A stretch of DNA of 64,000 nt from contig JAKZAN010000149.1 of NCBI GenBank assembly GCA_023053545.1, positions 1-64,000 on the forward strand. Reading direction: 5' to 3'. The DNA is from Lepidurus packardi (taxonomy: Eukaryota > Arthropoda > Branchiopoda > Notostraca > Triopsidae). Below, piece after piece: positions 1 to 24,104 of this stretch (position 1 is its first letter; every line of letters starts with the position of its first letter). The position numbers and the translations under genes are program-made. The notes below the pieces were generated by a model. The model did no database searches, was not told the DNA's origin, and was given only the letters and a program-made list of their open reading frames with translations.

Positions 1-250
1 CCCCAACCCCAACCCCAACCCCAACCCCAACCCCCAACCCCAACCCCCAACCCCAACCCCCAACCCCAACCCCAACCCCCAACCCCAACCCCAACCCCAA
101 CCCCAACCCCAACCCCAACCCCAACCCCAACCCCAACCCCAACCCCAACCCCAACCCCAACCCCAACCCCAACCCCAACCCCAACCCCCAACCCCAACCC
201 CAACCCCAACCCCAACCCCAACCCCAACCCCAACCCCCAACCCCAACCCC
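1..250. repeat. macronuclear telomere, C4A2 type
   Basis: The window begins with an uninterrupted array of CCCCAA units; at several places (near 31, 43, 57, 73, 185 and 230) a unit has five C instead of four. The array decays at about 240-262 (CCCCATACCCCAATC). CCCCAA on the 5' strand is the telomere of Tetrahymena, Glaucoma and, mixed with CCCAAA, Paramecium; spirotrich ciliates use C4A4. This marks the physical left end of a macronuclear chromosome. No telomere is present at the right edge. Confidence 0.98.
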
Positions 251-3489: not shown

Positions 3490-4189
3490 GCAAAATGGCC
3501 AAATTATCGACCTCTCCTCCCTGCCTCTTGACATCCGCAACCATTAGCGCTCTGCACATGTCTCCTCACCAACTTGGTTAGTGAGTTAGCGAGAGCAGCA
3601 AAGGAGCCCTAATATGTGGGTGGGATAGGTGTAGTGAGGGTCATGCTATTTAAAAGCATATATCCCTCTAGGACCATCCACGCGTTTCTTCCCAAGCATT
3701 AGACCAACAAGAGAACTCCCAAAGTGAGAAATCACCAATTACTAGAAATAGATTATAGGATTTACGTATAATATGACAAAACGTAAGATGGAGAGGGTTT
3801 TCCAAAAGGAGTTCTAACTGGTATGCAGAGAGAGGCTGGTTGTAAACCAAAGGAGATTGTTAGTAAATGAAGGAAGTACATGGGGGTGAAAGGCTGGGAG
3901 GCGGATGAAGGAAAATAGAGCGGGGAGAGAAAGGTGGGATGGAAACAAAAGGGCGTGGGAAATAGGGAAATGTAAGAAGCCAAGATTTGTTGGTGGAGTT
4001 TGAGAGTGGAAATGTGGGGATTCAAATATATAGCATACGAAACAAATCTGAAACAAATCTGGAACAAATCTTTAGAAAATGAGTGTGGAATATTTCGAAA
4101 CAGGATCTGCTCATTTATGCACTTTTAGTATGCCTAAGTTCGAAAACTCTACATATCAATTAAATTCCAAAACCATTTTCTATAGCTCA
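3490..4189. other. intergenic, upstream of the discoidin gene
   Basis: About 700 bases with a strongly purine-rich plus strand from 3790 to 4070. The open frames on the minus strand here are pyrimidine-driven and do not look like protein. It presumably contains the promoter of the gene starting at 4190. Nothing else is recognised. Confidence 0.5.
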
Positions 4190-7100
4190 ATGAACAAACC
4201 ATTCATCAATTCGCTACTCATACTCGCCCTTCTCGTCGCCTCCACGGCTCCCCAGACTCTTTGTCCTGATTCCCAACTCATCACTGCCTAGAGCCAGGGC
4301 AAATGCCAAAAAATACTCAAGTATATCGAAGGATGCTTCTCCTATGCATCTCCTACCGCCTGCCAGATATGCGAGTACAACTACCAGCTCCGAGATGGCA
4401 ACTGTAACTTTTCCATGGCCAACACTGATCCTTGCGTCTAATATTCATCCAAGGGCGTCTGTGTCCGATGCCAAACTGGCATGTATGCTGATGATGGAAT
4501 CTGCAAACAAATCAGGATTGCTGGCTGCTTGCTCAAGGACAAAAATAAATGTCTGAATTGTGCTGAGGGTTTCGAACGTCAGGATGACCAGTGTTACTTT
4601 ATCGAAGAACAAAAGGTGACTGTGTTCACTGGGAATCATGAGAATGCCATCACCCAGGATGCCATTCCTAAAGTGATTCAGACAACCTCCACGAACGTGA
4701 TAAAAGGCAAAGGATCAGTCCGCAACACTGTTAAGGTTGTCACTACCAGGGTTATTACTAAAGAGTTCGGCATTGGTTCAGATTTGGGAAAACTCATTTA
4801 TAGCAGTGCCCAGATTGCTCCAAAAAAGGAAGGATTCCAGATAAACAGCACCATGTCTTGGAAACCAGCAACCGTCAATTCTTCAGAGTATGTGGGGCTG
4901 ATGTTTAGAAAGCTATTGCGGCTCGAAAGAATTGAGATTCGGGGTGGAGATAACGATGAATATGTGACCAAATTCTGGATCGAGTACAGCAAAGACTACA
5001 AGAACTTCATCCGGATGGATAAAATTTTCGAAAGCACCGACGCTAAAAAGGGAACTGTTATGGCTGAATTTGAACAGATCGAAGCCCTTGAAGTGCGCAT
5101 CCATCCTGCTGGCTACAACAAGTGGCCTTCCATGCAGTTCGAACTCTTCTATGTTAACGATAACTGCAACACAAAAGAAGACGAAACTGTGGAAATTAAT
5201 GATCTCGAAAAAGGCAAAAACAACCAGATTGTCAATAATACGCAAACAATCACCGCAGAGATATCCAACAAACCAGTCGCTGAAACATCAACATCAGTGC
5301 CCAAGCTCAACAACAGAAAAAGATTCATCAAATTCACTGAGAAGGACACATACGAACAGATACTGGAATCAGCTTCGGCTGAGGGCAAGTGGACCTCATT
5401 CCGCACTCCAAGCATTCTTAAGCTTAATAGCCTAGGCTATATGAGTTGGAAAGCTTCTTCTGCTTCGAAGGAAGAGTTCTTGAGCGTAAACATGGGCAAA
5501 TATGTACTATTCCAAGATTTGCAGCTCATGGCCTTCTCAAGCAGCTTCTACATTACGAAATTCAGGCTGTAATATAGTGCTGATGGGCGCCAATTCAACA
5601 AGATGAACAGTACCTTCGAATGTAACGATTTAAACGGTAAAGATGATAAAGTATGCACTATTTAATTCCCCATCGTCAGAGCAGTAGAACTGAGAATCTA
5701 TCCCGTTGAGTTCGTTGGTGAAGCACCCGCGGGTATATTTGCACTGTTCTACGAACGTTATGATGAAGCAGCCTACACACAGTTTAAGAATAAACGAGAT
5801 CTTGCTTAAAGAATAGTGAATGAAAAGAAGGAAGAGGAACAAAAACGTCAACGGGAATAGATGGAAACTGAAAGACTCAGACAGGTTAAGAGATTAGACG
5901 AGGAGAAGACGAAGGTAGAAGAGGAAAAGAGGAGACTCGAAAAATAAGAATAAAGAGTGCAGGAAGAACAGAGAAAAAAGAAGCAAGCTGAACAAGAGTA
6001 GCTTTTGAGAATGCAACTCGCTCGGGAGGAAGGGCTAAGAAAAAACAAAATTGCCCAAGAAGAAGAAGAATACAAACTTAAGAAAGAAAATGAGGAAAAG
6101 GAACTCCAGTAAAAACTGAGAAAGCAGAAAGAAGAAGAGCAGAGACTCCGCAAAGAACAAGAACGGAAGCATCAAGAGGAAAAAGAAGCCAAGGCCAAGC
6201 TTAAGGAACTCGAGGAGTAAGAACAAAAACTCAAAGAAAAGCGTGCTGAGGAAGAGTTAAGAGTGAAGAAAATTTAGGAAGAGGTCAAAGCGGTAAAGGA
6301 AAGCAAGGCAGCCCCAGCTAAAATAGAACAAATGGATGCTCATTTGACCCAACTTAAGAAGGAGTTGACAGAAAATTAGAAAAAGTTCACTCAATCTATG
6401 ATGATGGTGGGAAAGGAATTAAAACTCGGGGAGGTTCAAATTTAAAAGATAAATGGAGAGATAGAAACCATCGAACAGCAAGAAATGGAAGTCGTAGAGG
6501 CAGAATTGAATACAGAGAAAAAGATATAGGCAAGTTTGGCTGAGTTGACTAAGGCTTCAGAATTCGAGCCCGCCCTCATTGCAAGCGAGTCCTTCGGTCC
6601 CGAGTACACAAGCTATGAAATAACCAGCACCAGAGGCTGGAGATCAAAGACTAACGCCGTCGGTACTTTTGCTGGAGTTGGCCTCAAAGAACCTGTTGAT
6701 TTCTACGCTCTGCAGCTCGCCCAAGGTGACGGAGGAAACCTCATCAAGTTTATGATAGAGGTCAGCGAAGATGGTAACACCTGGACTCCCATTACAGTGG
6801 ACGGAACTAACGAGTTCGATGGGTCTGAGACTGAGAACGGAAAGCCCATTACCATCACGTTCCCCTATCGTAGAGCCCGATTCGCCAGAGTCGTTGCTAA
6901 AAGCTGGAAGACTGCTATCGCCTTCCGCTTCGAATTCTACGTCAGAGGATCTAGAAAGTCTTTGGCTGAGTTGACTAAGGCTTCAGAATTCGAGCCCGCC
7001 CTCATTGCAAGCGAGTCCTTCGGTCCCGAGTACACAAGCTATGAAATAACCAGCACCAGAGGCTGGAGATCAAAGACTAACGCCGTCGGTACTTTTGCTG

Positions 7101-9298
7101 GAGTTGGCCTCAAAGAACCTGTTGATTTCTACGCTCTGCAGCTCGCCCAAGGTGACGGAGGAAACCTCATCAAGTTTATGATAGAGGTCAGCGAAGATGG
7201 TAACACCTGGACTCCCATTACAGTGGACGGAACTAACGAGTTCGATGGGTCTGAGACTGAGAACGGAAAGCCCATTACCATCACGTTCCCCTATCGTAGA
7301 GCCCGATTCGCCAGAGTCGTTGCTAAAAGCTGGAAGACTGCTATCGCCTTCCGCTTCGAATTCTACGTCAGAGGATCTAGAAAGTCTTTGGCTGAGTTGA
7401 CTAAGGCTTCAGAATTCGAGCCCGCCCTCATTGCAAGCGAGTCCTTCGGTCCCGAGTACACAAGCTATGAAATAACCAGCACCAGAGGCTGGAGATCAAA
7501 GACTAACGCCGTCGGTACTTTTGCTGGAGTTGGCCTCAAAGAACCTGTTGATTTCTACGCTCTGCAGCTCGCCCAAGGTGACGGAGGAAACCTCATCAAG
7601 TTTATGATAGAGGTCAGCGAAGATGGTAACACCTGGACTCCCATTACAGTGGACGGAACTAACGAGTTCGATGGGTCTGAGACTGAGAACGGAAAGCCCA
7701 TTACCATCACGTTCCCCTATCGTAGAGCCCGATTCGCCAGAGTCGTTGCTAAAAGCTGGAAGACTGCTATCGCCTTCCGCTTCGAATTCTACGTCAGAGG
7801 ATCTAGAAAGTCTTTGGCTGAGTTGACTAAGGCTTCAGAATTCGAGCCCGCCCTCATTGCAAGCGAGTCCTTCGGTCCCGAGTACACAAGCTATGAAATA
7901 ACCAGCACCAGAGGCTGGAGATCAAAGACTAACGCCGTCGGTACTTTTGCTGGAGTTGGCCTCAAAGAACCTGTTGATTTCTACGCTCTGCAGCTCGCCC
8001 AAGGTGACGGAGGAAACCTCATCAAGTTTATGATAGAGGTCAGCGAAGATGGTAACACCTGGACTCCCATTACAGTGGACGGAACTAACGAGTTCGATGG
8101 GTCTGAGACTGAGAACGGAAAGCCCATTACCATCACGTTCCCCTATCGTAGAGCCCGATTCGCCAGAGTCGTTGCTAAAAGCTGGAAGACTGCTATCGCC
8201 TTCCGCTTCGAATTCTACGTCAGAGGATCTAGAAAGTCTTTGGCTGAGTTGACTAAGGCTTCAGAATTCGAGCCCGCCCTCATTGCAAGCGAGTCCTTCG
8301 GTCCCGAGTACACAAGCTATGAAATAACCAGCACCAGAGGCTGGAGATCAAAGACTAACGCCGTCGGTACTTTTGCTGGAGTTGGCCTCAAAGAACCTGT
8401 TGATTTCTACGCTCTGCAGCTCGCCCAAGGTGACGGAGGAAACCTCATCAAGTTTATGATAGAGGTCAGCGAAGATGGTAACACCTGGACTCCCATTACA
8501 GTGGACGGAACTAACGAGTTCGATGGGTCTGAGACTGAGAACGGAAAGCCCATTACCATCACGTTCCCCTATCGTAGAGCCCGATTCGCCAGAGTCGTTG
8601 CTAAAAGCTGGAAGACTGCTATCGCCTTCCGCTTCGAATTCTACGTCGATAAGAGTATCTCTCTCCATCGTTATCAGAGAGCTTCCGCTGTTGGAAAACT
8701 CATTTCTTCCTCTAGTTATGGCTTCGAAACAACAACATGGCCTAACTCTTCGCCTTCTACCCGCTTTATCCGACTTAAGCCATTAAATGGAGCCTTTATT
8801 GGATATGAGATGCAGAGTCCCGTTGGGTTTGAGGCTTTACAAATAGAATTCCCTAGCGGTCTTTCTCCAATTAAAGGTATCCAGATTCAAGTGGCCGACG
8901 GCTGCTCTTTCAAGAATTGGGGTTCTGTATACAACATTTCATCGACCAAAAGTGGGCCCCAAACTATCTTCTTTGAAAAGGTTCTTGCCAGAAAAATCAG
9001 AGTAATCTTCATTGGAAAGGCCACAGTTTTATCCGCGCGACTCGAATTCTTCTATGCAGATCAATCCCAGAATATATTGAAGATTAAATCACAGGCCCCG
9101 CAGCCACCTTCAGCTCAAGGAGGATGGAATCCATTCACAGGCAGACGAGACAACTTCTGGACAACCAGCAAGTCGCAGACGCAAGGATGTCAAGGAATTT
9201 CGAATAGTCATAGACCAAAGGCAGGAGGATGTTGTTGCAGGAAGGCGTGTCCATGCTTAAGAAGATGTAGGCTGCTGAAGTGCTGTCGCCGTCGCTGA
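4190..9298 (+). CDS. secreted multi-discoidin (F5/8 type C) repeat protein
   Basis: A single frame of 1702 residues. The ATG at 4190 is chosen over an in-frame ATG at 4079 because it starts a clean signal peptide (NSLLILALLVAS). Order: signal peptide; Cys-rich region, residues about 22-137, like those of ciliate surface proteins; two diverged discoidin-like domains (about 197-325 and 381-522); charged E/K/Q coiled coil (about 524-780); five tandem 142-residue discoidin units (783-1487); a last diverged discoidin-like domain (about 1487-1622); a tail rich in Cys and Arg. The units contain the expected FMIEVSEDGNTWTPI and FRFEFYV segments. Discoidin domains usually bind carbohydrate or lipid at cell surfaces, so an adhesive or extracellular-matrix role is an inference. 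TAA/TAG Gln codons are common in the first part but absent from the five repeats. The 3' end has a frame ambiguity (see findings). Confidence 0.85.
6536..8647 (+). repeat. five tandem 426-bp coding repeats
   Basis: Units begin at 6536, 6962, 7388, 7814 and 8240, exactly 426 bases apart; the fifth diverges after about 8647. By reading, the copies are the same base for base: the encoded protein and the out-of-frame translations are identical in all five. Each unit encodes one 142-residue discoidin domain plus a short linker (RGSRKS). Such identity points to very recent amplification or continuing homogenisation. An assembler collapsing or expanding the array could change the copy number. Confidence 0.97.
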
Positions 9299-21869: not shown

Positions 21870-24104
21870 ATGTCCAAACTCATTCTTCTTTCACTACTCC
21901 TCCTCTCTTCCAGACTCCAAGCATCCGTTATCGTCCCCAATGCCCAGCCACTAGCCAAGTCCCTCCTCGAAGACTCTGACATTAACGCCCAACAAATCAA
22001 GACCGCTGTCTAGAGCCTCCAATCTCAATTTACTGCCTCCATCGCACAGAAGAATGCCGAACGGGCAACAGCCTCCGCCAACCTCAAGATCACTAATCTT
22101 GTAACTGGATAAAAAAACAAAGTTCAGGGTATATAAAATGTGGTGGAAGGCCACAAGAATGTGGTGAGCGGCAAGCAAATCGATATTTCTGGCAGCTAGA
22201 ATAACATCAGAGGTCTGAACGCTACTGTTATCGGCAACCAAAACACCTTGGTCAAGGGCAAAGATGTGTTGATTAGTGGAAATGCCAACACTGTAGAAGG
22301 CAGCACAAACACTATCTTGGGAGACAAGAATCTTGTTTCCGGAAACACCAATACGGCAGTCGGTGCCGAAAATATTATCAAGGGGGATAAAAATACCCTG
22401 GTCGGTGACCAGTCAAAGGTCTTCGGCAGCAACAATATAGCAGTAGGCAACAAGAACACCATCAAAGGTAGTGACAATCTCCTGAAAGGACATGAAAACA
22501 CCATCACTGGGGGCAGCAACGTGGTCAAAGGCAACAGCAACGAGGTAACAGGAGACTCCAACAAAGTTTATCTCGACTCCAACAAGGTCGCAGGCAACAG
22601 CAACTCGGTCTTCGGAAACGAGAATGCGGTCATCGGAAATGAGAACGCTTTGAAGGGAGACAAAAATATGGTCAAGGGAAACCAAAACGAAGTTGAGGGT
22701 GACAAAAATACAATCTCAGGAAATAAGAACAGCATCACCAATGGGTCGAGCAATGTAGTTGCAGGCAGCTCAAACATACTCAAGAACGCCAGTGAAAACT
22801 CGGTCTCTGGTAATAAAAACGAGATCACTAATGGAAACAGGAATGTCGTTGCAGGAGACCAAAACTCTCTTCAAGGTGACGCCAACACAATCGAAGGCAA
22901 TCTAAATGTGGCCAAAGGCAATCTCAATCAGCTTTCTGGAAACTCCAACGTTTTGGAAGGAAGCTAAAACAAAATCAAAGGCGACCTCAATAAGGTCAAA
23001 GGAAACAAAAACGAGATATTGGGTAACACTAACGAAATTGCAGGTAGTACCAACAAAGTACAAGGCGACTAGAACAAAGTCAAAGGTAACGAAAATGTAA
23101 TTACTGACAACAAAAACACCGTCGAGGGAAACAAAAACAGGGTTGCCGGAGGAAACAACGTCATCTCTGGTGATATGAATCAGGTTGGTGGACTTAAAAA
23201 CACTGTCAGTGGGAACAGAAACTAAATCGAGGGAGGCAGCAACTGTGTAAAGGGTCAGGAAAACAAGGTCGAAGGTACTCGCAATTAGCTGGAAGGCAAC
23301 AAGAATCTTGTTAAGGGCGCTGACAACACCGTCAAAGGTAGCTAAAACACTCTCAGCGGTCAGAGTAACAAAGTCGTCGGCGACAAAAATGTGATGAAGG
23401 GTGACGAAAACACTGTTGTCGGATCGGAAAACTCACTGAAGGGAAACCAGAATACAGTTCAGGGCGACAAGAACTCAGTAAGTGGTGATACCAACACTCT
23501 CAGCGGCAAATAAAACATTGTAGAGGGTAACTAGAACTTGATCAACGGAAACAAAAACACTTTGGCTGGAAACAAAAATCAGATTGTGCACGGTGATAAT
23601 AACCAGGTCAAGGGAGACGAGAATGTTCTGAAGGGCAGTAACAACGGTGTCAACGGCAACAACAATGAGCTTATTGGCAACGCTAACCAGATCAAAGGCC
23701 ATGAAAACAAGATCAAAGGTGACAACAATGCTGTCATCGGAAACCTGAATCAGGTGGCTGGTCATTTTAATACTGCTAATGGAAACGAAAATAAGATCAA
23801 GGGTAGCAACAATATGGTCAGCGGCGATCATAATGCTCTTCAAGGCGCCAAAAACGCCATCAAGGGTGGTGACAACACCTTGATCGGAAACGAAAACACC
23901 CTATCGGGTTCCAGGAATAGTGTGCTGGGTTCAAACAACAATTTACTGGGAAATAAAAATGTAGTAGATGGTAAAGCTAACTGCATTAGCGGAGACTTCA
24001 ACAGGATCAAAGGCCAGGAAAACAATGTTAAGGGAGGTGGTAACCATGTGTCAGGAGGTGGAAATCATGTTAGCACCGAATTCAACGAAGAAGACCTATA
24101 CTGA
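21870..24104 (+). CDS. secreted heptapeptide-repeat beta-solenoid-like protein
   Basis: One intronless frame of 744 residues. Signal peptide at residues 1-18 (LILLSLLLLSSRLQA); short helical linker (about 20-85) with KSLLEDSDINAQQ; then about 90 heptads of the pattern N-x-(V/I/L)-x-G-(N/D/S)-x to about residue 738; a short acidic end (EFNEEDLY). Typical units: GNSNEVTGDSNKV. The spacing is almost perfect, interrupted only by slips such as ITNGSSNVV. Two heptads per coil would match the 14-residue turns of left-handed beta-rolls such as YadA heads, which suggests a long rigid rod. Function is inferred only: extracellular adhesin, cyst-wall or ice-binding-like protein. In-frame TAA/TAG Gln codons fall in the variable x positions. 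No Cys in the repeats except one or two. Confidence 0.88.
22141..24088 (+). repeat. about 90 tandem 21-base coding repeats
   Basis: The heptad N-x-hydrophobic-x-G-x-x repeats every 21 bases over about 1.95 kb. Unlike the discoidin array, the nucleotide copies are highly diverged while the codon pattern (AAC/AAT at position 1, GGN at position 5) is preserved, which indicates long-term selection on the protein rather than recent expansion. Confidence 0.9.

Follow-up and report, generated by a model that had tools for sequence, protein, structure and literature searches.

What does a protein built largely from a single seven-residue motif do, and does its likeness to the antifreeze proteins of grasses reveal its task? 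The question is raised by a frame at 21870-24104 on the forward strand of a 64,000-nucleotide window (the whole stretch of DNA that was analysed), which opens the 77,707-base contig C138 of assembly GCA_023053545.1. The frame encodes 744 amino acids (aa), ends in a TGA stop and is open only when TAA and TAG serve as sense codons, 11 of which lie in frame and are read as sense. An initial annotation of the window had proposed a secreted heptad-repeat solenoid of a ciliate, perhaps an adhesin, a cyst-wall protein or an ice-binding-like protein. The explanation to which we give slightly better than even chances is a secreted, rigid, salt-bridged beta-roll rod that is structural or adhesive, and not an antifreeze. 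The parts of the gene on which the argument draws are as follows:

21870..24104, forward strand: coding sequence of the heptad-repeat protein, 744 aa plus TGA stop, no introns seen in the frame, Pfam match PF21300
21870..21923, forward strand: presumed signal peptide, aa 1-18, a hydrophobic N-terminus judged by eye
21945..22079, forward strand: N-terminal segment, aa 26-70, predicted helical in a low-confidence single-sequence model (block predicted local distance difference test, pLDDT, about 43-66)
22095..24083, forward strand: repeat region, aa 76-738, 94 repeats of N-x-aliphatic-x-G-x-x, five of them of 8 residues, from segmentation and the charge ladder
23073..23576, forward strand: modelled part, aa 402-569, 24 heptads, a predicted regular beta-roll (AlphaFold2, pLDDT 96.1, predicted template modelling score, pTM, 0.86)
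24084..24104, forward strand: C-terminal tail, six residues plus stop, from the translation, with no membrane segment seen

The heptad repeat and its predicted fold

Segmentation resolves the repeat region into 94 repeats over 663 residues, 89 of seven residues and five of eight, where the initial annotation, right in kind but not in count, had seen about 90 heptads over 650 residues. Its description of the motif is borne out: Asn stands at position 1 in 90 of the 94 repeats, an aliphatic residue (V/I/L/A/M) at position 3 in all of them and Gly at position 5 in 86, and the full N-x-[VILAM]-x-G is in register in 82, against a maximum of 14 matches when the region was shuffled (n=1000). The remark that Cys-bridges are lacking needs qualifying, as the repeats hold two Cys, whilst the claim of secretion is supported by eye, from the hydrophobic N-terminus. 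Judged from the sequence, this is an old repeat whose pattern is maintained by purifying selection, as had been argued from the divergence of the DNA copies. The 7-residue repeats share a mean pairwise DNA identity of 49% and mix synonymous codons (Gly, for example, is GGA 34, GGT 33, GGC 29 and GGG 4 times). Alignment with a paralog on contig C334 (47% identity) gives a saturated proportion of synonymous differences (pS 0.80) and a nonsynonymous divergence (dN) of 0.46 overall, which falls to 0.13 at scaffold positions 1, 3 and 5 and reaches 0.81 at positions 2, 4, 6 and 7, where identity is still 26-28% against 9-16% by chance.

Prediction and charge pattern agree on how the heptads would be arranged. 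That two heptads make one 14-residue coil is supported because AlphaFold2, given an alignment of 21 rows, models aa 402-569 with a mean pLDDT of 96.1, a pTM of 0.86 and one short strand per heptad, and because opposite charges stack at a lag of two heptads. At that lag the window protein has 28 opposite and 7 like pairs, compared with shuffled means of 18.5 and 23.0 and no shuffle of 2000 reaching the observed value; the C334 paralog has 31 opposite and 10 like (P 0.001), and in both proteins the other lags among 1-8 give P of 0.10 or more under code 6. Handedness and trimer formation aside, a monomeric roll is predicted for aa 402-569, and the modelled beta-roll fold can be regarded as well supported. 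The model resembles that of a YadA-like phage (viral) head (TMq 0.69, root-mean-square deviation 2.1); Foldseek against the PDB gave no match at E 0.001, its top rows being leucine-rich repeat (LRR) receptors that are unreliable.

Relatives of the repeat and a family in the assembly

The initial annotation knew of no described eukaryotic family with this repeat, a claim that did not survive the Pfam-A search. Eleven stretches of the window protein match PF21300 (LbR_Ice_bind, the grass antifreeze beta-roll) at 5.8e-89 and 292.8 bits, past the curated cut-off of 30 bits, and an NxVxG/NxVxxG motif is in print for the ice recrystallisation inhibition (IRI) proteins of grasses in PMC2542378. A described family of known function was among the grounds for refutation that the initial annotation had named, and it applies in part: the family exists, but its known function, ice binding in grasses, does not fit here. 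The best PDB chain by sequence is likewise the IRI protein-like 3ult of Lolium (2.2e-13), with CbpF, BpaC and further adhesin chains ranking next. Going by PMC5744647 and PMC2542378, the grass proteins (LpIRIP/LpAFP, 3ult, PF21300) share with the window protein the N-x-V-x-G / N-x-V-x-x-G repeats, beta-roll coils of 14-15 residues and presumed secretion; they differ in that most have about 15 or more repeats (PMC2542378) compared with 94 here. The window protein also has charged faces and a non-grass host, and the N-terminal LRR domain present in some members of the grass gene family is absent from its Pfam table at E 1. PMC2542378, from 2008, describes the IRI domain as having no homologues outside cold-tolerant grasses.

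A second group of relatives came from a protein search. Among 7985 candidates scored, 21 proteins matched at E 0.001 or better, mostly with 27-34% identity over parts; 16 of the 21 carry PF21300, and those inspected look bacterial- or phage-like in our judgement. Such PF21300 proteins (P0003, P0005, P0006, P0008 and others) differ from the window protein in using the standard code and in having longer non-repeat domains. The heads of YadA-type trimeric autotransporters, which are left-handed beta-rolls, share the 14-residue two-heptad coil, and the kinship in fold first suggested is upheld by PDB sequence matches that include BpaC, UspA1 and CbpF as well as by the phage head model; unlike them, the window protein has a stricter 7-residue unit, belongs to a eukaryotic gene with reassigned stops and shows no YadA anchor match. 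When a 307-aa piece served as query in another such search, one match came up among 2169 candidates and no other ciliate, from a library consisting mostly of prokaryotic-style predictions in which genes with reassigned stops would be split. Bacterial and archaeal genome contigs and viral contigs yielded 68 and 44 pattern-matching stretches, of which zero were confirmed as close relatives. A literature search, from which subscription papers and preprints were out of reach, found no account of this repeat in a ciliate. What emerges is a fold already described, met here in a lineage where it was not expected, and for which the antifreeze family name is misleading.

Within the assembly the gene belongs to a family. 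Of the 15 matches that a search returned, 13 are on small contigs and two on large ones; the latter, on the multi-megabase contigs C5 (17% identity, 19 TGA) and C6 (29%, 10 TAG), were dropped as spurious, and a further search gave matches on C16, C76, C1, C290, C6 and C3 that fell below the cut-off. Frames read around the matches resolve into 12 genes on 11 small contigs (C138, which carries the window, C334, C276, C183, C236, C209 with two genes, C313, C281, C308, C160 and C315), whose repeat numbers range from roughly 7 to 99; in this reading some genes may hold unrecognised introns and the second C209 gene is taken as two frames. By eye, 11 of the 12 have a hydrophobic signal-like N-terminus (the start of the first C209 gene was not found), and Pro-rich stretches precede the repeats in C236, C313 and C160. 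The roll of C334 is preceded by a frame that begins like a signal peptide, continues with a Pro-rich stretch and then runs through long Ser/Thr-Gly (STTG-type) repeats; this minisatellite (L018 and L033) is open, with one frame change within the repeats for which a misassembly, an intron or a separate gene could account. One paralog may add a Ser/Thr-rich, mucin-like stretch to the roll. ARAGORN found no matches on 11 loci, nor did Rfam and tRNA scans of the 64-kb window.

The ciliate chromosome and its genetic code

The ciliate origin first proposed is supported by the telomeres at the contig ends together with the use of TAA and TAG as sense codons. Because C138 carries CCCCAA repeats from window base 1 (window 1-250) and TTGGGG repeats at its far end, it looks like a complete macronuclear chromosome; C276 and C160 also have telomere repeats at both ends, and C334 at neither. 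The same assembly holds contigs C1, C5 and C6 of 10-14 Mb and intron-rich chaperonin genes of a co-assembled organism with multi-megabase contigs, and since such large contigs sit alongside the small telomere-capped ones, the ciliate appears to accompany another organism. Elsewhere on the chromosome, seven F5/8 type C stretches occur in a 1739-aa frame at window 4079-9298 (forward strand), which also has an internal hydrophobic stretch resembling a start and possibly encodes another secreted, lectin-like protein.

Oligohymenophorean ciliates read UAR as Gln, and Vorticella and Campanella as Glu, according to PMC6935857. For this host the evidence leans weakly to Glu, the peritrich nuclear code (table 30), as the more probable reading. 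Of 20 chosen Pfam families, nine score better with Glu, nine with Gln and two are tied, the sum being +8.0 bits for Glu (+10.2 excluding PF21300). Overlapping families do not enter this sum; some of them favour Gln (PF24105, 71.0 against 64.3 with Glu) and some Glu (PF07719, 56.9 against 51.4 with Gln). Paralog residues opposite TAR codons (n=22) are Glu in seven cases, Gln in five and Asp in three. Reading Glu raises the lag-2 ladder from 28/7 to 37/7 in the window protein and from 31/10 to 37/13 in C334. A positive lag-2 neighbour accompanies 24 of 52 TAR codons against 41 of 157 CAR (P 0.009) and 63 of 188 GAR (P 0.10), the plus-to-minus ratios of these neighbours showing no significant difference among codon classes. 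Cpn60 carried no information on the code, its two TAA lying in a stretch missing from PDB relatives that is probably an intron. A chaperonin eta-subunit fragment at L073 on contig C145 has just two TAA codons, both within a probable short intron. If TAA and TAG encode Glu, the host would be a peritrich. Peritrichs are attached, often stalked ciliates, and it is this lean that lends appeal to a role in a stalk or lorica.

Rod, adhesin, bulk protein or antifreeze

In the proposed rod the arrangement of the coils is well supported: about 47 coils of two heptads each are stacked, with aliphatic residues, Asn and Gly making the core and turns, and adjacent coils are locked on the outside by Lys alternating with Asp/Glu at the same heptad position. 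A single continuous rod of 47 coils at 4.5-4.8 Å would measure about 21-23 nm. It would leave the cell and, together with paralogs of which some are Pro-rich or Ser/Thr-rich N-terminally, form or adhere to a layer outside it, candidates being a surface coat, stalk, lorica or cyst wall. We infer the structural or adhesive function, preferring it to an antifreeze because the surface is charged; the likely ligands of the charged faces would be polysaccharide, mineral ions or partner rods, not ice. A more specific version, which we entertain only tentatively, is a lineage-specific family of such secreted, salt-bridged rods that makes the stalk, lorica or cyst wall of a peritrich-type ciliate and evolved by heptad expansion independently of the grass roll, arriving at the same NxVxG solution for a structural task.

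The family name invites another reading, in which a flat Thr/Ser-rich face would adsorb to ice and stop recrystallisation as in grass IRI proteins. Those proteins bind ice through a flat side in which Thr and Ser abound (PMC7383708 and PMC5744647), but a common fold by itself shows no function and the window protein has no such essentially uncharged face. Charged residues occupy 57 of its 188 outward sites (positions 2 and 4), compared with 1 of 30 for a Lolium fragment (Fisher P 0.0008). That fragment was cut by hand into 15 segments, one of them off register by one residue, which affects the T/S/V letters and leaves the charged count unchanged. Neither charge (P 0.52) nor T/S/V (P 0.68) prefers a face, coils with uncharged positions 2 and 4 run to at most six on one face and four on the other, and C276 and C183 are more highly charged still (0.42 and 0.44), with T/S of 0.08-0.09. 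Because the outward faces are charged without face preference, the ice-binding option of the initial annotation is disfavoured and appears very improbable; DUF3494 had no match in the assembly, in a search without a responding control that carries no weight. Hardly less doubtful is a bulk protein of cyst walls or of stored secretory granules (extrusomes), in which the regular roll would serve packing and not adhesion: a secreted multigene family of very unequal repeat lengths would suit a space-filling role. A YadA-like trimeric head, with three rolls side by side binding host or substrate and charged faces partly buried or ligand-binding, is also unlikely, albeit with more to commend it. The PDB matches to BpaC, UspA1, CbpF and other heads, the YadA anchors of bacterial matches P0002 and P0004 and the phage head model all point that way, and short paralogs of about 7-10 repeats may need partners for stability. 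The model, however, covers a monomer only, the anchor is missing from the Pfam table of the window protein at E 1, and no coiled-coil stalk or membrane anchor was seen, no test having been aimed at them. The adhesin or wall protein of the initial annotation is still a candidate.

Several observations weigh against the rod. Structure prediction had been proposed for residues 86-738; the good model spans 168 of 744 residues, one of the five models scored 70.2, the alignment behind it has 18 bacterial or phage rows that may steer it, and AlphaFold2 without an alignment was unusable (pLDDT 34.5). A significant charge ladder is lacking from C276 (P 0.12 at lag 2 and 0.047 at lag 1) and from C183 (P 0.09), and the ladders of the window protein and C334 are not independent evidence, given the homology of the two. 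C334 has T/S mildly skewed to one face (28/100 vs 13/98, P 0.014), although that face is still charged at 23/100, and its mucin-like part lies in a different frame from its beta-roll, the two forming one protein only putatively. The neighbouring genes in the window give no hint of function.

Should the rod reading hold, the protein would be a natural rigid rod with built-in salt-bridge ladders. The lag-2 charge ladder is itself a cheap, structure-free test of coil size that is usable on other repeat proteins. More broadly, a ciliate family that carries the NxVxG motif of grasses, at far greater length and with charged faces, would uncouple this fold from ice binding.
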